Assembly: GCA_945882415.1 (NCBI GenBank)
Contig: CAMCWC010000008.1
Coordinates: 1-64,000 of the forward strand
From: Chthonomonas calidirosea
GTDB lineage: Bacteria; Armatimonadota; Fimbriimonadia; Fimbriimonadales; Fimbriimonadaceae
Direction of reading: 5' to 3'
DNA: 64,000 bases
Below the pieces are notes generated by a model. It made no database searches, was not told where the DNA came from, and worked only from the letters and a program-made list of their open reading frames with translations. A program made the position numbers and the translations under genes. Shown one piece after another: positions 24,803 to 51,413 of this stretch. Each line of letters starts with the position of its first letter. The first letter of the stretch is position 1.

Positions 24803-24895
24803 CAATGGATCAGCGGTTTAGGATCAAAGAACCAGATGGGTTAGTACCGCTTTAGAGGTACGTTAGAGCACAAGGCTAGCACCAATTATTTGCAT

Positions 24896-27814
24896 GTGCG
24901 TCTACACTTTTTGGCTATGTCATTGCTTGGATTGCTGGCTTCTTCGAGCTCGGCGATTGGTGCCGATCACCTGCCGTCCCAGTCAAGCAACTTGTCAGAC
25001 ATTTCAGACAGGCTAGCGCGAGGTTTTGACCAAACGGGAACGGGGTACATCGCTCGGCAGCCCAATCGGTTTTCCGCGGAGTTTTCGAACAGCGGAGCCG
25101 TGAAGCTCCGGGCGAACGCCGATGGCATCGCCATTCGAACCGTTGCGTTTGGAAGCGGAGCATCACGAGTAACAACCGGCGCGCCCCAAGTCAGCCGAGG
25201 CGTGGACAATTCCGGTTGGCCAAGGCTGAACCTCACGCGACCCAATTTCCGAGAGTGGTATGTCAATGAGCGCGCCGGATTGCACCACTGGATGCAAGTT
25301 CAAAGCAAGCCAGGAATCGGCCAAAACCTGTGGGTCAAGTTGGCTGTCAATGGCGCTACCGGTCTCGAACAGATTGACGAGCAAACGGTGGAGTTCAAAA
25401 CCTCGACGGCCAAGTTTTCCTATGCTGGCCTTTCGGTTTGGGATGCCAACGGAACCGTGCTTCCTGCACATCTCGAAGCCGCAAACGATGCGATGTACGT
25501 TGTGGTCGATGACCAAAATGCTCAGTATCCGGTGACGATCGACCCCGTCTGGACGCAGCAGGCCAAGCTCATTGCCAGCGACGGCGCGAACAGCGACCAA
25601 TTTGGATTCAGCGTTTCCGTATCTGGCAATTTGGCGGTCATTGGTGCACCCTACGTTAACCTGCCCGGCAGTGACTTTGGTGCAGCGTACGTGTACCGTC
25701 GAGAAGGCGTGACTTGGACCCAAGAGGCCAAGCTCGTGGCGTCCGACGGTGCCAGCGGTGACTACCTGGGTTACAGCGTCGGGATCTTCGGCGAAACCGT
25801 GGTGCTTGGCGCATACGGCGACGGTGGTGGCTCCGCTTATGTTTTCGTGCGGAACGGTACGTCCTGGTCGCAACAGCAAAAGTTGATTGGCAGTGATACG
25901 GGATCTTCTGACCAGTTTGGGTTTGCGGTCGGAATTTCTGGAAACACGGTGATCGTCGGTGCCCGGAACGCGGATCCAGGTGGAAGCAATCGCGGGGCGG
26001 GATACGTGTTTGTCCGAAGTGGTAGCACTTGGACCCAGCAGGCGAAGCTCACCGCAAGCGATGGTCGTAACTCGGACCAGCTTGGCTACAGCGTTGGGAT
26101 TTCCGGCGACCGAGTTGTGATGGGCGCTTATGGTGTGGATGCTGGAGCGACAAACGGTGGCGCCGCCTACGTTTATGAGCGGAGTGGAAGCACATGGACG
26201 CAGGCGCTAAAGTTCGTCGCTCCAGACGCCGGCCCCAACGACCGACTCGGTTTTAGCTGCGCCATGTCTGGCGATACTTTCATCACGGGTGCTCGATTTG
26301 CCGATACCGGAGGCACTGACCGTGGTGCCGCGTATGTTGTGTCCAAGGCATCTGGCTCGTGGGCGATGCAAGCAAAGCTCACGGCAAGCAATGCGACGAA
26401 CGGCGATAACTTCGGCTTTGCCGTGGGTATTTCGGGAGACCTCGCGGTGGTTGGCGCATTCAGCTCGGACATCGGCGGCTCAAATCGAGGGGCGGCTTAC
26501 TCCTACACTCGTACGGCGGGAGTTTGGGGATCGGAATCTTTGATCCTGGCTACGGACAGTGCGAACGGAAACCAATTCGGCTGTAGCGTGGGCATCGATG
26601 GAGAGTCCGTTCTCGTTGGCGCGCGACTTGCCGATCCAGGCGGTTCCAACCGAGGTGCGGCATACGCTTACGCGGTCTATCGGACCATGTCGATTAGTTT
26701 TTCGACCCAAGGGGTAACGACCAGTAAGGCAACCACGGGCACGGTTACGATCAGCAGCGCTTCCGCAACCGACACTGTCATCAATCTATCCAGCAGCACA
26801 CCGGCTTTGGCGGTTCCAAGCACCGTCACCGTTCCGGCCGGGTCCACGTCGGCGACCTTCCCGGTTTCCGCCGGTAGCGTTAATGCAGATACAACCGTGA
26901 CTGTGACGGGTACGGCGACGGCGTTCACGTCTGGGACCGGAACGATTATCGTCCGCATCCCTCGAGTCGGTGGCGTCACGTTTGACCGTACGCAAGTTGA
27001 AACGGGGCAAACGGCGATGGCAACCATCTTGCTGCAGGCACCGGCTCCAGTCGGCGGAATGACCGTCAACCTGAGCAACTCGATGCCGAGCGCGCTCGAA
27101 TGCCCGGCGACTGTTTCGGTGCCGATGGGGGCCACGCGTGCTTCCGTACTGGTCACAGGAAAGCCGGTCCCAACGGACTTCACGGCTAAAGTTACGGCAA
27201 CGCCTACGTTCAGCGAAAAGTCGGCCACGATTCTCGTCAAGCATGGCGCAGTCTTGAGCGCGTTCAGTTTCCAGGAGTCCAGCATCTCGACTTTTGGAAG
27301 CACGGTGGGAATGGTCACCCTCACCGCGCCGGCGCCGGTCGGTGGGGTCGAGATCGCTCTGAGCACAAGTTCAAACCGCTTGACGGTTCCCGCAACCGTC
27401 ACCGTGCCAGAAGGGGCCACATCGGCTACCTTCCCGGCAGAGAGCGGTGCGCTATCGCATCCATCAGTCGTTGTTCAGGCCTCCAGCAGTGGAGTGACTC
27501 GCACAAGTTCTGTCGCCATCGTGCGTAGCGCGATCACCTCGGTCACCGCTCCGTCCAGCGTTGTCTCTGGAGACTCAGCAATCATGACCATCTCTATCAC
27601 CGGGGTTGCACCGGCAAGCGGGACGGTTGTGACGCTTGGCACAGACGCCCCGGCGGTGGCGTCCCTGCCCGCTTCGGTGATCATTCCAGCCGGTCAAAGC
27701 TCGGTGCAGGTGACGGTTATCACGACTCTTGGTAAGCGTGGGCGAGTGAACCTCTACGCAAATCTCCAGGGTCAAGGCACCAAGAGTGCTCGAATGGAAG
27801 TCACAGAGAACTAG
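24896..27814 (+). CDS. Large secreted FG-GAP repeat protein with C-terminal Ig-like domains
   Basis: This 972-residue extracellular protein has about seven FG-GAP/integrin-alpha-like blades (residues ~220-600), each of the form QAKL-ASDG--SDQFG-SV-ISG---V-GA---D--GSNRGAAYVY. Three to four Ig-like modules with VTVPAGSTSATFPV-type strands follow (about 605-970). GTG 24896 gives the best signal peptide (RLHFLAMSLLGLLASSSSAIGA); ATG 24917 and TTG 24890 are alternatives. AATTAT lies 6 nt before the GTG, so a leaderless transcript is plausible. The role is probably adhesion or a surface-display scaffold, inferred from fold only. There is no C-terminal sorting motif that I recognise. It meets the DUF488 gene tail-to-tail with a 4-bp overlap. 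Confidence 0.87.
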   Translation: MRLHFLAMSLLGLLASSSSAIGADHLPSQSSNLSDISDRLARGFDQTGTGYIARQPNRFSAEFSNSGAVKLRANADGIAIRTVAFGSGASRVTTGAPQVSRGVDNSGWPRLNLTRPNFREWYVNERAGLHHWMQVQSKPGIGQNLWVKLAVNGATGLEQIDEQTVEFKTSTAKFSYAGLSVWDANGTVLPAHLEAANDAMYVVVDDQNAQYPVTIDPVWTQQAKLIASDGANSDQFGFSVSVSGNLAVIGAPYVNLPGSDFGAAYVYRREGVTWTQEAKLVASDGASGDYLGYSVGIFGETVVLGAYGDGGGSAYVFVRNGTSWSQQQKLIGSDTGSSDQFGFAVGISGNTVIVGARNADPGGSNRGAGYVFVRSGSTWTQQAKLTASDGRNSDQLGYSVGISGDRVVMGAYGVDAGATNGGAAYVYERSGSTWTQALKFVAPDAGPNDRLGFSCAMSGDTFITGARFADTGGTDRGAAYVVSKASGSWAMQAKLTASNATNGDNFGFAVGISGDLAVVGAFSSDIGGSNRGAAYSYTRTAGVWGSESLILATDSANGNQFGCSVGIDGESVLVGARLADPGGSNRGAAYAYAVYRTMSISFSTQGVTTSKATTGTVTISSASATDTVINLSSSTPALAVPSTVTVPAGSTSATFPVSAGSVNADTTVTVTGTATAFTSGTGTIIVRIPRVGGVTFDRTQVETGQTAMATILLQAPAPVGGMTVNLSNSMPSALECPATVSVPMGATRASVLVTGKPVPTDFTAKVTATPTFSEKSATILVKHGAVLSAFSFQESSISTFGSTVGMVTLTAPAPVGGVEIALSTSSNRLTVPATVTVPEGATSATFPAESGALSHPSVVVQASSSGVTRTSSVAIVRSAITSVTAPSSVVSGDSAIMTISITGVAPASGTVVTLGTDAPAVASLPASVIIPAGQSSVQVTVITTLGKRGRVNLYANLQGQGTKSARMEVTEN

Positions 27815-36373: not shown

Positions 36374-38824
36374 ATGAGATGCCGACGTCCTATCTTGGCC
36401 GCGCTCGGGTGCGCACTTGCAACATTTGCATGGGCAGCACCGTCCGACCCCGGCAGTGTAACCCCGAAACGAGACCTCGTCATTTGGGGCGTCAGCATCG
36501 GAGCCGACTCGAAAGGCCAGAGCGCCGTCATCCGAGAGTTTGAGCGCCGAAACCCGGACGTGCGCGTTCGCATCCTAAGCATGGGCGCGGGACAGATGGA
36601 CCCGCAGAAGTTGATGACGAGCATCGTTGGGAACGTTGCTCCGGACGTGATCAACCAAGACCGCTTCACGATCGCCGACTGGGCGAGCCGCGGCGCATTC
36701 CGGTCGCTCGACGACTTGATTGAGCGAGATAAGGATAAAGATCCCCTCACTCCCAAATTTGAGGACTACTACGAGGCGCCTTGGAAAGAGGCGATGTATG
36801 ACGGCAAGATTTACGCCATCCCGACCGGTGCCGACAACCGCATCCTCTACTGGAACCGAAAGATTTTTCGTGAGCAATCGGCCCAACTGACTGCGGCTGG
36901 TCTCGATCCGAGTCGCCCCCCGCGAACCTGGCCCGAACTGCTCGCTTACAGCAAAGCCCTTACCGTTCGAAACAGCGACGGTTCGCTAAAGCGAGCAGGG
37001 TTCATTCCTAACTTCGGCAATGCATGGTTGTACATGTATTCCTTCCAGAACAACGCTGACTTCATGACGGCGGACGGGAAGAAATGCACGTTATACAGCC
37101 CGGCCAGCGAGGAAGCCCTCAACTTCATGAAGGAGGGCTATGAACTCCTCGGGGGTTATGAGAACGCGAAGTCATACGAATCCGGATTCCTTGGCAAAGA
37201 GAACGATGCGTTCATAACCGGGAAAGTCGCCATGAAGATTGATGGCGACTGGATATTGAACGACCTGTCTCGCTACGCTCCACAACTCGAATTGGGGGCG
37301 GCCCCACCGCCGGTCCCCGAAGATCGATTCAACAAGGTCGGCCGATTCAAGGACGAGAAAGATACGTTTATCACTTGGTTCGGTGGCTTTTCTCTCGCCG
37401 TCCCGAGAGGGGCCAGAAATGTGGCCGACGGCTGGGAGTACATCAAGTTCGCCACCAGCACCGAGGGCCGAATGATCGAGTACGCCGCCCAAAGGGATTG
37501 GGAGCGTCGCCGTGGTCGGACCTTCATCCCGCGAATGCTCGCCAGCCGAAATGCGAACGAGCAGGCATTTGAGCGGTTCAAGCCGGCCGACAAAAAGTTT
37601 GCCGATGCGCTGTCCATGCACATCGAAATGGCACCCTATGGCCGAGTTCGGCCAGCGACGTTCGTCGGTCAGACGCTATGGAGCGAGCACGTGAAGGCGA
37701 TGGAGGCGGCTCTTTACGGGAAAGCCACTTCGAAGGAAGCGTTGCTGGCCGGACAGGCCGCCGTGCAGCGGGAACTTGACGCTTTTTATAGCAAATCGAA
37801 TTATCCCGTCATCGACTTGGCGATCCCAACCTACATCGCGATCGGAGTCCTTGTTGTAGCGCTTGCGATTGGTGGCGTTTGGTTCTCGAAGCTGAACCTC
37901 GGAAGACTCGCGAAGAACGAGGCGAAATGGGCTTACCTATTTGTTGCGCCTTGGGTGATTGGGTTTGTCGTGCTCACGCTCGGGCCGATGATCGCATCGC
38001 TGTTCTTCAGCTTCACGCAGTACGACGTTCTGAACGAAGCTCGATGGGTGGGTCTCCGCAACTATCAGGAGATGTTCACCAGCGACCGAACCACGGTTCT
38101 CAAGGCATTTAGCAATGCGGCTTATCTTGCGATGGTTGGTGTTCCTCTTGGGCTCGCAACTGGGCTAGCGGTAGCAATGCTGCTCAACGTATCGACGAAG
38201 GGAATGCGGTTCTACCGAACCCTCTTCTACATGCCGGCCATCGTCCCCGTCGTAGCGAGCGCCGTTTTGTGGACATGGGTGCTCACTCCCGACCCGAGCA
38301 AGGGGCTCATCAACTCGTTTTGGAAGGAGACCTTGACCGCGTGGCTTTCCGTACCGCCACCGACTTGGCTTCAAAGTGCGGACTGGGCAAAGAACGCGCT
38401 GATCCTCCAAGGACTTTGGGGAGCAGGGAGCGGAATGTTGCTTTGGCTCGCTGGATTGAAAGGCGTTTCGACGACGCTTTATGAAGCTTCCGGGATTGAT
38501 GGAGCCACCCCACGGCAGCAGTTCTGGAACGTTACGTTCCCGATGCTCACGCCAATTGTCTTCTTCAATTCGGTCATGGGCTTTATCGGGGCGATGCAGG
38601 AGTTCGACCGGCAGTACGTTATGAAGCCATCGAAGGATGGCCCGATCGGTCCGGACGATGCGCTCCTGACTCCGGTCTATCACCTCTTCCGAAACGGCTT
38701 TGCCTTCTTCAAGATGGGTTATGCCTCCTCCCTCGCCTGGTTGATCTTCGTGGTCATCATGGTCCTGACCTTCACCCAGTTTCGACTGCAAGATCGCTGG
38801 GTCCACTACGAGACAGATAAGTGA
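36374..38824 (+). CDS. Fused sugar-binding protein and CUT1 ABC permease (MalE/UgpB + MalF/UgpA type)
   Basis: This 816-residue protein joins two normally separate subunits. Residues 1-25 are a signal peptide. About 30-470 are an SBP family 1 receptor (VIREFERRNPDVRVRI, LMTSIVGNVAPDVINQ, GKIYAIPTGADNRILYWNRKIF, GKVAMKIDGDWIL). A helix at about 480-503 (TYIAIGVLVVALAIGGVWF) returns the chain across the membrane. From about 515 a full CUT1 permease follows (WAYLFVAPWVIGFVVLTLGPMIASL, VGLRNYQEMF) with the ATPase-docking EAA loop YEASGIDGATPRQQFW at about 702. Topology puts the receptor in the periplasm and the EAA loop in the cytoplasm. It overlaps the partner permease as GTGA. No ATPase gene is nearby, so a shared MsmX-like ATPase is likely. 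Confidence 0.93.
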   Translation: MRCRRPILAALGCALATFAWAAPSDPGSVTPKRDLVIWGVSIGADSKGQSAVIREFERRNPDVRVRILSMGAGQMDPQKLMTSIVGNVAPDVINQDRFTIADWASRGAFRSLDDLIERDKDKDPLTPKFEDYYEAPWKEAMYDGKIYAIPTGADNRILYWNRKIFREQSAQLTAAGLDPSRPPRTWPELLAYSKALTVRNSDGSLKRAGFIPNFGNAWLYMYSFQNNADFMTADGKKCTLYSPASEEALNFMKEGYELLGGYENAKSYESGFLGKENDAFITGKVAMKIDGDWILNDLSRYAPQLELGAAPPPVPEDRFNKVGRFKDEKDTFITWFGGFSLAVPRGARNVADGWEYIKFATSTEGRMIEYAAQRDWERRRGRTFIPRMLASRNANEQAFERFKPADKKFADALSMHIEMAPYGRVRPATFVGQTLWSEHVKAMEAALYGKATSKEALLAGQAAVQRELDAFYSKSNYPVIDLAIPTYIAIGVLVVALAIGGVWFSKLNLGRLAKNEAKWAYLFVAPWVIGFVVLTLGPMIASLFFSFTQYDVLNEARWVGLRNYQEMFTSDRTTVLKAFSNAAYLAMVGVPLGLATGLAVAMLLNVSTKGMRFYRTLFYMPAIVPVVASAVLWTWVLTPDPSKGLINSFWKETLTAWLSVPPPTWLQSADWAKNALILQGLWGAGSGMLLWLAGLKGVSTTLYEASGIDGATPRQQFWNVTFPMLTPIVFFNSVMGFIGAMQEFDRQYVMKPSKDGPIGPDDALLTPVYHLFRNGFAFFKMGYASSLAWLIFVVIMVLTFTQFRLQDRWVHYETDK

Positions 38825-40569
38825 TTTCTCCCCAATTCCTCTTCGCCATTGGGACCCTACTTGCCTGGATCGGCTGGGGATTCGCGCTGTCTGCCGTCGC
38901 AAAGTTGGCCAGATACTTCGGTCGCGATCCGCGAGTTGACCGGCCAGCAGAACTTCGCGGCGCGTTTGTGGCCGCTGCCATCGGTGGAGTGACTTTGCTC
39001 GTGAGCAGTCAAGCGAACCTCCTCACTCCGACCAAGGCGACCGGTGTTTGGAGATTTCCGCTGACCTGGTTTGTCATGCCGTTTACGGCCTGGCTAATGG
39101 CGATATCGGTTGTCATGATCAGCATTCGCTCCGTGCAGTCCTTCTTGGCCATCACGCCAGAAGAGCGAACCGAGAAGTTGCAGACCCTCTTTGGATGGGT
39201 TGTCGTTATCGCAATTGCCGGCACCCTTTACTTCACCGACAAGACCTCCAAGATTGATGTCTTGACCGGTGGGATCGAGGTCACTCCCGCGACCGGTGCA
39301 GGGCTGTTGTTCCTCGCGGTCGCTGCCGTTGCCGGAATGACCTTGGCGGCTCAGGCCACGCGATCACGCGATATTGCCCGGGGGCTCACGAGCCAGCTGA
39401 TGTTGTTGATCGGGTCATTCGTCTTCGGAATCCCGTTCGTCTTTGCGTTGGTTACCAGCTTTAAAGAGGACCAGGACATGGTCTCCCCTTCCGGTGGAAT
39501 TGTTTGGATTCCGCGAGTGCAGCAGACCGTTCCGTACATGGACAAGAAGACTCCGCTCTATGCCACCGATTACAAAGGTAAGAGTATTCAGGGCACCGTT
39601 CTCGATCGAAATGCGGACGGATCGGTGACGGTTGACATCTTCAAACCTCTTTCGATCCGCGGCACAACCTTCCAAACCGACGCATCAAAGCTAAAGGAGA
39701 TTCCAAGAGATGCTCCCGTCGTGACAGCCAAGTTCGAATCACAGGAAGTGACTGGTTTTGTCACGGAAGAGATGGAAGACGGTCGCCGGCAGGTGGAGAT
39801 CACCGAGCCGGAGTCGCTCAAGGGGAAAGTTCAGGTTTTCGAGCCGGCCCAAGTTCAAGCGGTACGTAAGACCGGCCTTCGCTGGCAGAACTATGAGGAC
39901 ACGTTCAGCTACTTACCGCCCGAGACGAACAACGGATTGGTGTATTTGAAAAATACGCTGATCCTTGTGATCTTTTCCGTGATCGGCACGATCATGAGTT
40001 CGGCAATCGTGGCTTATGCCTTCTCCCGCATGTCATTCCCTGGCAAGGAAGCCCTGTTCAAGCTGTTGCTCAGCACGATGATGCTACCGGCGGCGGTGAC
40101 CCTGTTGCCGCAGTTCCTCATCTTCCGCGGCCTGGGTTGGATCGACACCCTGTTCCCGCTCTGGGTGCCGGCGTTCTTCGGCAGCGCCTTCAACATTTTT
40201 CTTTTGCGGCAGTTCTTTAAGAACATCCCGATGGAATTGGAGGACGCGAGCAAGATTGATGGCTGCTCCTACATTCGGACCTTCTGGGACATCATGCTGC
40301 CCCAAATCAAGCCGGCACTGGCCGTCATCGCGATTTGGACCTTCATGGGTGCGTGGAACAACTTCATGGGCCCGCTGATTTACATCAACTCACCCGAGAA
40401 CATGCCGCTTAGCTACGCGCTTCAGCTGTTTCAAGGCGAACGTTCCGGTGAACCTGGCTTGTTGATGGCGTTCAGCGTGATGACGATGATGCCGGTGCTC
40501 TTGCTGTTCTTCTTCGCCCAGCGGTACTTCATTGAGGGCGTGACGCTGAGCGGGTTGGGCGGCCGCTAG
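38821..40569 (+). CDS. CUT1 ABC permease (MalG/UgpE type) with extra N-terminal helices and periplasmic insertion
   Basis: This 582-residue protein is the second permease of the fusion importer. A normal MalG-type protein is about 280-300 residues. Here about 190 N-terminal residues add five predicted helices (e.g. [37 protein letters not shown]). The MalG core begins at [23 protein letters not shown]. Its first periplasmic loop (about 214-370) holds an extra beta-rich domain ([34 protein letters not shown]). The EAA loop [22 protein letters not shown] (about 473) is intact. The start is GTG 38821 overlapping the upstream TGA. The loop domain may contact the tethered binding protein. Confidence 0.92.
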
Positions 40570-48587: not shown

Positions 48588-51413
48588 ATGCGCGTTAGAA
48601 ATAAAAGTTTTGGAATTGCCGCTCTCATCGCGTGCAGTGCCTCCGTTTTTGCCCAAGGTGGAGCGTCATTCGACCCTTCTTGCTGGCCGCCAATGAGTAC
48701 GACAGGTCCGAGTACGGACTACCTCGTCTACAAGCTGACCGATGATGTGCCCTTCATCGCTGGACCGCAAACAAACAACTTTCTGTTTGGCGTGTCTATC
48801 GGTGTCAGCGGAACCGACACTTACAGTAACTTGTGCGTAGGTCCAAACGGTGCCACATTCAATACGCCTGGCCGTTTCGGATTTACCACCGGTTCTCTAG
48901 GTTCAATTCAAACGACCGCTGACGATTTTCTCCGAACCAACTTTGGAATGCCTTACATGGTGGGTGGCTCGATTGGCTACACCATGCTCATTCAGCAGAA
49001 TGCCGATGGCTCCAACCAGCAGAAGATTCGCTTTGGTGGAAACGGGATTCGGCTTGCGTTCGTCGGTGCCAGTGACCGGTACTGCATCACCGAAACCGAA
49101 GCTGGTGACTTTACGATTCGTCTTCAGACAGACGTGATTGGCGATGCCGCGCGCATGAGCTATCGCCTCACGAACAACGCGACTGAAATTCGACGCGCTG
49201 GCCTTTGGATGGGCAGTGAAATTCAGTTGACCGACCAGAACGGATTCAGCGGAGTTCCAGGCTACGTTTTCGCTCCTGGCTACCGGCCGTTCACAACGGG
49301 TAAGCGATTCCGACGCGGTGCAGATGGCACGACTTTTGACGCCGAAGGCGTTCAAGTTCTTCCGATGCCGAATACCGTTTCGTTCGGAATCAATCAAGAA
49401 CTTGCATACGGCCTCCAGGTCGTGACCACGGCTGCCACGAGCAATGGTCGAGCAACGAGCGATCAGACTCCATCGGACGAAATTGCAATCGGTAACGCTG
49501 ACTTCGGCGCAGCCGATAATGGTCTCATTGGCAACTTCGCCAATAACGGTGCGACGATGGCGGACCAGCTCATTTCACCCGACGTCCTCGTCGTTGACTG
49601 GGCGTTCCTCCAGAAGTGGAACCCAGAAATCGTTGCTGCTGGTTCTTCGCGAACGATCAACGCTTACTACAAGACCACTTGGGGTGTCTCTGACTATGCC
49701 GCTCCATTTGCGGTCGTCGCAGACGCACCACCCGTGATCACGACGGCAGCCGGAGACGCAAACACTCTGACGCCGAATCCTTACACCTTCCGCGTTTATG
49801 TGGACAACACTCGGGGCTACTCGACGATCGATCGTGAATTCACCCTTACGAACGTTCGTGTTGAGTTGAACCTGCCGCCAGGCATGTCCGATGCCGCGGA
49901 TCCGACTCGAACGCGAATCACTCGAGTGATCAACCAAATTCTTCCGCGAAACATTGGTTTCGTGGACTTCCAGGTCCAAGTCAGCAATGAAGCCAACGGA
50001 ATTCTTCCGTACACGGTCAAGGTTGACTCAACCACCGGTGCATCGAAGACTCTCACCGGCTCGATCAACGTAGCTACCACTCCACGACTTGGTCTGCCTG
50101 CAACGGCTAACCTGGTCGGATCGCCTTGGACGTATCAGGTCACGAACTGGGAAGCCATTTTGGGCTTGCAGGTCAACCAGGACTTCCAGGCATTCACTTA
50201 CGATCCTGCGCAGCGAGAGTATGTGATCCAGACCGGTCCACAGCGAGGCCGCGGTACCTGGCTCGTCTTCGGTCAGCCACAGGGAACGGTTGTTCTCGGC
50301 GGCTCGCCAACGACCCCAGCCGACACCACTACCGGAGCGGCGCCACAAACGCTGCAATCAGGCTGGAACTTGATCGCGAACCCGTATAACTTCTCGGTGC
50401 CGCTCGGACAGCTCAGCGGTATCTCGGCAGCGGACCCAGGCAACGTTCTCACGTTCCAAGAACTGGTCAACGCCAGCTTCGTGAGTGGATCGCTCGCTTA
50501 CTGGGACAACACCAGTCCAACGCCAGAGTACAAGTACATCTCGAATACGACTGACTTGATCCTTCCGAACAAGGGTTACTGGATCTTCGTGAACACTCAG
50601 CAGCAGCTCACGATGTCCTTCCCGCCGGTCTTCGAACCATTCCTCCCAAGCGGCGCAACCGTTCAGGGTAACTCGGCGAAGTCTTGGAAGCTCCAGCTTT
50701 CGGCTCGAACGGACAAGATGGTCGACGCTCAGAACTTCGTTGGAATCGCTGCAAGCGCAGCGGCTGCAGAGAAGGCAACTGCCTACGAAGCACCAATCGC
50801 TCCGCTCGACGGCGCGATTAGCCTGTCCATTCGACAGGAGAAGGGTGGAAAGGTCGAGAAGCTTGCTCAGTCCTTGGTTGAAAAGGTCGCTAAGCAGACT
50901 TGGAACGTCGAAGTCTTCACGAAGGAAGATGGACCGGTAACCGTTACCTGGCCAAATCTTGCCGGCGTCCCACGAAACGTTCAGTTCCGCATCACCGACA
51001 AGGCAACCGGCCGCTCGACGAACCTTCGACGAGCTTCGGGTTACACGTTCCAGGCTGAGGCCCGAACCACTCGACAGTTCACGGTCGAAATGGAGCCAGG
51101 CGCAACGGCCCGACCAGTCATCGGAATGGTTACGGCGATTCGAAGCAGCAAGCTCGCGAACGCTCCTCTCAACATCACCTACACGCTGTCTTCCGAGGCA
51201 ACGACTACGGTGCGAATCTTGAGCGGTGGTCGAGAGATCAGCACGGTGGTTCGAGCTCGAGCGGATAAGGCCGGTCAGAACTCGATCGTGTGGAATCTCC
51301 GAGACGGTGCAAACCGAGCGGTCGCTCCTGGACCATACACGGTTGAAATCACTGCGGAATCAGCAGACGGCGAACGCGTCCGACGCTTCTTCCCAGTCAA
51401 CGTCACCCGATAA
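48588..51413 (+). CDS. Large exported surface protein with FlgD-like Ig domain
   Basis: This 941-residue protein has a signal peptide (SFGIAALIACSASVFA). Residues ~25-370 are a beta-rich domain of unknown family (e.g. TTGRFGFTTGSLGS, RMSYRLTNNATEIRRAGLWMGSEI). Ig-like and SLH-like-free beta domains follow, including the SGWNLIANPYNFSVPLG segment seen in secreted proteins with T9SS-like or Ig tails. The last 85 residues resemble the FlgD Ig-like domain (TTVRILSGGREI... NSIVWNLRDGANRAVAPGPYTVEITAESADGE). Arginine is nearly all CGA, so expression is probably high. No function can be assigned; a cell-surface role is inferred. Confidence 0.82.
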   Translation: MRVRNKSFGIAALIACSASVFAQGGASFDPSCWPPMSTTGPSTDYLVYKLTDDVPFIAGPQTNNFLFGVSIGVSGTDTYSNLCVGPNGATFNTPGRFGFTTGSLGSIQTTADDFLRTNFGMPYMVGGSIGYTMLIQQNADGSNQQKIRFGGNGIRLAFVGASDRYCITETEAGDFTIRLQTDVIGDAARMSYRLTNNATEIRRAGLWMGSEIQLTDQNGFSGVPGYVFAPGYRPFTTGKRFRRGADGTTFDAEGVQVLPMPNTVSFGINQELAYGLQVVTTAATSNGRATSDQTPSDEIAIGNADFGAADNGLIGNFANNGATMADQLISPDVLVVDWAFLQKWNPEIVAAGSSRTINAYYKTTWGVSDYAAPFAVVADAPPVITTAAGDANTLTPNPYTFRVYVDNTRGYSTIDREFTLTNVRVELNLPPGMSDAADPTRTRITRVINQILPRNIGFVDFQVQVSNEANGILPYTVKVDSTTGASKTLTGSINVATTPRLGLPATANLVGSPWTYQVTNWEAILGLQVNQDFQAFTYDPAQREYVIQTGPQRGRGTWLVFGQPQGTVVLGGSPTTPADTTTGAAPQTLQSGWNLIANPYNFSVPLGQLSGISAADPGNVLTFQELVNASFVSGSLAYWDNTSPTPEYKYISNTTDLILPNKGYWIFVNTQQQLTMSFPPVFEPFLPSGATVQGNSAKSWKLQLSARTDKMVDAQNFVGIAASAAAAEKATAYEAPIAPLDGAISLSIRQEKGGKVEKLAQSLVEKVAKQTWNVEVFTKEDGPVTVTWPNLAGVPRNVQFRITDKATGRSTNLRRASGYTFQAEARTTRQFTVEMEPGATARPVIGMVTAIRSSKLANAPLNITYTLSSEATTTVRILSGGREISTVVRARADKAGQNSIVWNLRDGANRAVAPGPYTVEITAESADGERVRRFFPVNVTR

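Follow-up and report, generated by a model that had tools for sequence, protein, structure and literature searches.

A sugar receptor and a CUT1 permease joined in one chain across Armatimonadota, usually beside a partner permease with an enlarged periplasmic loop

CUT1 sugar importers are usually described with free or lipid-anchored receptors, present in excess over the channels. Escherichia coli MalEFGK2 and UgpBAEC combine a family-1 receptor, MalF/UgpA-like and MalG/UgpE-like permease halves with EAA loops, and a MalK ATPase encoded with the system. Covalent linkage of a receptor to the membrane domain occurs in OpuA. Fused receptors have been treated for ABC importers generally (PMC8276074), and in GlnPQ, too, the receptor domains are joined covalently to the membrane domain (PMC8025302). 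GlnPQ and OpuA are receptor–permease fusions, as is the protein described here, but they are amino-acid/osmolyte importers, not CUT1 systems, and have a different receptor family. For the CUT1 class, Licht et al., in Res Microbiol in 2019, are said to have reported a Bdellovibrio receptor domain, MalE, fused to MalF. PDB entry 6ffl bears the title of a maltose/maltodextrin-binding domain, MalE, from Bdellovibrio bacteriovorus, with "permease homologue" as the name of its chain; the Bdellovibrio arrangement is taken here from that title and chain name.

We analyzed a 64,000-nucleotide stretch of DNA (the window), whose plus strand carries at 36374–38824 a single stop-free open reading frame of 816 residues. 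From N to C terminus, the translation comprises a Sec-type signal peptide, a full family-1 sugar-binding domain, a single transmembrane helix, and a whole UgpA/MalF-type CUT1 permease with its EAA loop intact:

36374–36439, plus strand: predicted Sec-type signal peptide, residues 1–22 (MRCRR...ATFAWA↓A), with a charged start, hydrophobic helix 4–20, and an AWA↓A site
36470–37789, plus strand: family-1 sugar-binding receptor domain, residues 33–472 (Pfam, Foldseek)
37790–37819, plus strand: short periplasmic tether, residues 473–482, between the last receptor helix (453–472) and the membrane helix
37820–37891, plus strand: extra transmembrane helix leading from receptor to permease, residues 483–506 (hydropathy, AlphaFold)
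37916–38812, plus strand: CUT1 permease core, UgpA/MalF-like, residues 515–813 (solved relatives AlgM1, SugA, and MalF)
38480–38545, plus strand: EAA loop of the fusion, residues 703–724, with E704, A705, D709, G710, A711, and P723 invariant in 51 relatives (alignment rows)

The fold classes are those of the E. coli systems, in which, unlike here, receptor and permease are separate proteins; an N-terminal receptor continuous with a MalF-like permease is the arrangement of the Bdellovibrio MalE–MalF kind. Both Pfam domains lie above cut-off: SBP_bac_1 at residues 51–366 (E 2.7e-30) and BPD_transp_1 at residues 593–754 (E 5.6e-9). Together with the stop-free frame and the invariant EAA residues, they bear out a sequence-only reading of this DNA that had described one 816-residue chain holding a complete receptor and a complete permease. 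The nearest NCBIfam model for residues 519–812 is UgpA (E 5.7e-30), with the archaeal glucose permease GlcT also near; the UgpA match reaches 105 bits against a cut-off of 335, and with scores well below the equivalog cut-offs the domain is classed as a CUT1 permease without a named substrate.

The AlphaFold model is confident over the whole chain (mean pLDDT 87.7, pTM 0.82) and places the hydrophobic helix 4–20 first, then a two-lobed receptor up to residue 472, helix 483–506, and the permease helices. The best Foldseek match of the receptor domain is CpMnBP1, a manno-oligosaccharide receptor (4r9f; E 5.4e-23, TM-score to target 0.81), and further matches include cycloalternan, acarbose/maltose, sophoro-oligosaccharide, sucrose, and trehalose/maltose receptors. 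The oligosaccharide-receptor fold and the SBP_bac_1 match identify the extracytoplasmic family-1 receptor of a CUT1 importer, and by analogy with the nearest solved receptors, an oligosaccharide is the likely substrate. Bdellovibrio 6ffl, likewise a CUT1 maltose/maltodextrin receptor belonging to a permease chain, matches this receptor profile at E 2.4e-24, with the receptor domain alone compared. N-termini of relatives mostly end in AxA-type signal-peptidase sites, and a conserved lipoprotein motif was not seen there.

At the join, residues 482–500 are strongly hydrophobic (mean Kyte–Doolittle 2.36), the modeled helix covers 483–506, and a basic segment, GRL.R, follows as expected for a cytoplasmic end; the crossing helix proposed from the letters alone is predicted here, too. 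Only about 10 residues of tether separate the end of the last receptor helix (472) from the start of the membrane helix (483). Among 43 Armatimonadota rows, mean identity is about 25% in the join helix, the lowest in the protein, and about 25–30% over tether and helix. The stretch 470–512 nevertheless keeps its length in 42 of these 43 rows, a constancy that is unexceptional on its own, as insertions are rare elsewhere in the chain as well. Constant length despite such low identity suggests that what counts is the spacing and not the particular residues. The same poor conservation would suit a polypeptide cut in the periplasm at the tether to give a free receptor and an ordinary permease, the fusion then fixing only equal synthesis; but the join length has been kept despite the divergence, and a released receptor would need no transmembrane helix after it, so that we regard cleavage as improbable. 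With the receptor remaining attached, the reading we prefer, fixed stoichiometry and a raised local receptor concentration would follow from the architecture.

The frame that follows encodes a second permease half, and its start overlaps the fusion stop by four bases (GTGA):

38821–40569, plus strand: partner permease, MalG/UgpE-like, 582 residues, with BPD_transp_1 at 397–571 (Pfam) and Foldseek matches to MalG/SugB
38821–39366, plus strand: five extra N-terminal helices (model helices 4–33, 41–66, 88–109, 113–139, and 156–179; an N-terminal extension in alignment A2)
39466–39936, plus strand: enlarged periplasmic loop that separates core helices 1 and 2 (local model pLDDT about 80)
39508–39873, plus strand: two small predicted beta-barrels within the loop (model; weak Agenet-like Foldseek match)
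40234–40314, plus strand: EAA loop of the partner ([11 protein letters not shown]...LPQIKP), with E474, D475, A476, D480, and G481 invariant in 28 rows

Clustering finds this partner in 30 of 32 fusion-bearing sources (31 related loci and the window). Fusion and partner supply two different permease halves, one MalF-like and one MalG-like, each with an EAA loop, and the C-terminal half of the partner is the MalG/SugB-like permease. The partner model as a whole is moderate (pLDDT 71.7, pTM 0.49), and the loop and extra helices give only sub-threshold Pfam matches. The extra helices number five in the lineage of the window and usually three or none in deeper members.

The partner loop measures about 160 residues. 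In the MalF/MalG topology, the MalF P2 domain contacts the maltose-binding protein; we take the partner loop to occupy the equivalent position on the opposite subunit. By the same measure, the loop spans 97–324 residues in 15 of the 17 deeper clade members from Armatimonadota (short in L118 and L128) and 311–339 in three Planctomycetota members, against 32–51 in 13 of 15 unfused systems, among them E. coli MalG and UgpE at about 40. Two unfused MalF-like/MalG-like pairs—the second pair of L114 (11878–13870, plus strand) and L151 (4137–6373, minus strand)—also have a MalG-like member whose loop is enlarged, and neither has a receptor gene detected next to it; three of four fusions outside the focus clade have short loops. 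An enlarged loop therefore does not strictly mark a fusion. We regard its link to tethering as an association that characterizes the clade without holding as a rule, and one confounded by shared ancestry. It is possible, though doubtful, that the loop barrels serve as a receptor-docking module and arose in step with tethering, giving a permanently assembled receptor–channel complex whose docking arm is on the opposite subunit from that in E. coli MalFGK2. The swapped position makes the enlarged loop a direct test of receptor positioning on type I importers. In one Planctomycetota partner (L071:8190–10334, plus strand), the periplasmic insert at the same place is about 430 residues long and unlike the small barrels of the window.

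Receptor–permease fusion is already known as a kind, from GlnPQ and OpuA and, for the CUT1/maltose class, from Bdellovibrio (6ffl), and the novelty implied by the sequence-only reading was overstated; what is new is the phylum-wide version with an enlarged MalG-side loop. That reading also passed over the enlarged MalG-like partner, the ATPase that is probably shared, and the two other fusions of this genome. Our literature search found no description of the Armatimonadota fusion, and the portion of the first Fimbriimonas genome paper that lists ABC transporters leaves fusions unmentioned.

Gene neighborhoods gave little further indication of substrate. A divergent MFS gene lies beside the fusion in eight close loci, with no other conserved neighbor, and 78 neighboring ORFs around 20 deeper loci share no common pathway, comprising only scattered housekeeping and carbohydrate genes. 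Homologous proteins occur upstream in L054, L057, L061, and L067; of these, the L061 protein was tested and proved to be a CBM48/GH13 alpha-amylase. Recurrence in four loci is too few to assign a substrate from neighborhood, and alpha-glucans are a lead only. Elsewhere on the plus strand, the window encodes a 941-residue protein that has a FlgD Ig-like domain close to the C terminus (48588–51413) and a 974-residue protein made largely of FG-GAP repeats, in seven matched stretches (24890–27814). In L052, the gene immediately upstream of the fusion encodes a 986-residue protein that has this domain, too.

No ATPase gene was found in the fusion operon; in the E. coli systems it is encoded with the importer, whereas the MalK-type gene in the genome of the window is distant from the operon. 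That genome (99.2% complete) contains one OB_MalK match and one TOBE_2 match. Both fall in a single MalK-like ATPase of 382 residues on contig C5, the only recognizable MalK-type gene, and the genome has about nine CUT1 permease sets. The simplest inference from these gene counts alone is that the MalK-type ATPase is probably shared among the CUT1 systems of the genome, though other ATPases lacking TOBE/OB domains could supply the fusion importer. Multitask CUT1 ATPases of the MsmX, MsiK, and MsmK type are encoded by one gene apart from many permease operons, and the genome of the window likewise has its single recognizable MalK-type gene away from the fusion operon. MsmK serves several carbohydrates in Streptococcus suis (PMC4519317).

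On the evidence as a whole, we consider it very probable that the locus encodes an ABC sugar importer of the CUT1 (type I) class in which receptor and MalF-like half form one covalent chain. The N-terminal receptor domain would leave the cytoplasm by the Sec pathway and stay at the periplasmic face, anchored about 10 residues from the membrane by the one extra helix. Closing on a sugar or oligosaccharide, it would hand its ligand to a channel formed by the permease domain of the fusion and the MalG-like partner of the next gene, while both EAA loops would serve as docking sites for a MalK-type ATPase from another locus, one that other CUT1 systems of the genome probably use as well. By analogy with the MalF P2 loop in E. 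coli, the tethered receptor is probably guided or supported by the enlarged loop on the MalG side. The receptor–permease complex might instead act mainly as a sugar sensor or regulator, given the lack of any consistently adjacent metabolic gene or ATPase in the operon and the extra partner helices. Invariance of both EAA loops implies coupling to an ATPase, however, a MalK-type ATPase is present in the genome, and no signaling domain is attached; we consider a sensor role improbable, too.

We return to the tethered importer and its distribution. The sequence-only reading had suggested looking for the same fusion across Armatimonadota, and whole-genome sampling covered that phylum and Planctomycetota. 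The full-length fusion is present in every sampled genome of the genus of the window (identity 63–93%), and full-length relatives overall are 40–93% identical. Of 251 evenly sampled Armatimonadota genomes, 205 give a match of E 1e-40 or better, and roughly 146 (our own count from the results table) have full-length relatives with a best E below 1e-140, a level far from that of permease-only matches (about 1e-80 at best). Planctomycetota carry it sparsely, with a strong match in 14 of 199 genomes, some of these fused. An assembly or frame artefact joining two genes has next to no probability and is refuted, as the earlier reading had argued from the frame: An unbroken frame of the same kind is found throughout Armatimonadota and again in Planctomycetota, far more often than chance would allow. 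Well over 100 independent assemblies show it, single-contig genomes among them, and nothing was found in favor of an artefact, the one related item being a TAG inside the receptor part of one relative. Phylum-wide conservation and the confident structure model together support a tethered receptor, a crossing helix, and an intact permease.

In the permease tree, the focus clade, which contains both phyla, is monophyletic at 99/96 support. A single clade of all fused permeases is weakly rejected (p-AU 0.027), so fusion was probably gained or lost more than once. A single origin of all receptor–CUT1 fusions was likewise set aside, the tree needing several changes; gain followed by loss also fits, and the basal branches are open. 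Fusions outside the focus clade include two in the window's own genome and others in Planctomycetota. One of the two, a less related 809-residue fusion (G000:C8:143158–145416, in L005; L132:11503–13929), precedes a MalG-like gene whose product has a short loop; the other, also less related, has 804 residues (G000:C16; L136:4167–6578, minus strand), and no MalG-like gene was detected within 10 kb of it. Unfused CUT1 sets coexist with fusions in this genome. An ancient, phylum-wide lineage with receptor and channel fixed one to one, and unfused systems in the same cell, would provide a natural experiment on receptor excess and free diffusion.

A search of plasmids for fusions returned mostly separate neighboring genes merged by the search. 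Among the listed clade members, the only interrupted fusion is L114:8213–10702 (minus strand), with an in-frame TAG inside the receptor part. The contig of L049 is labeled "Methanoregulaceae archaeon isolate SJ84" but contains the Armatimonadota operon, and it matches a genome assigned to the family of the window; evidently its archaeal name is wrong, or the bin is mixed.
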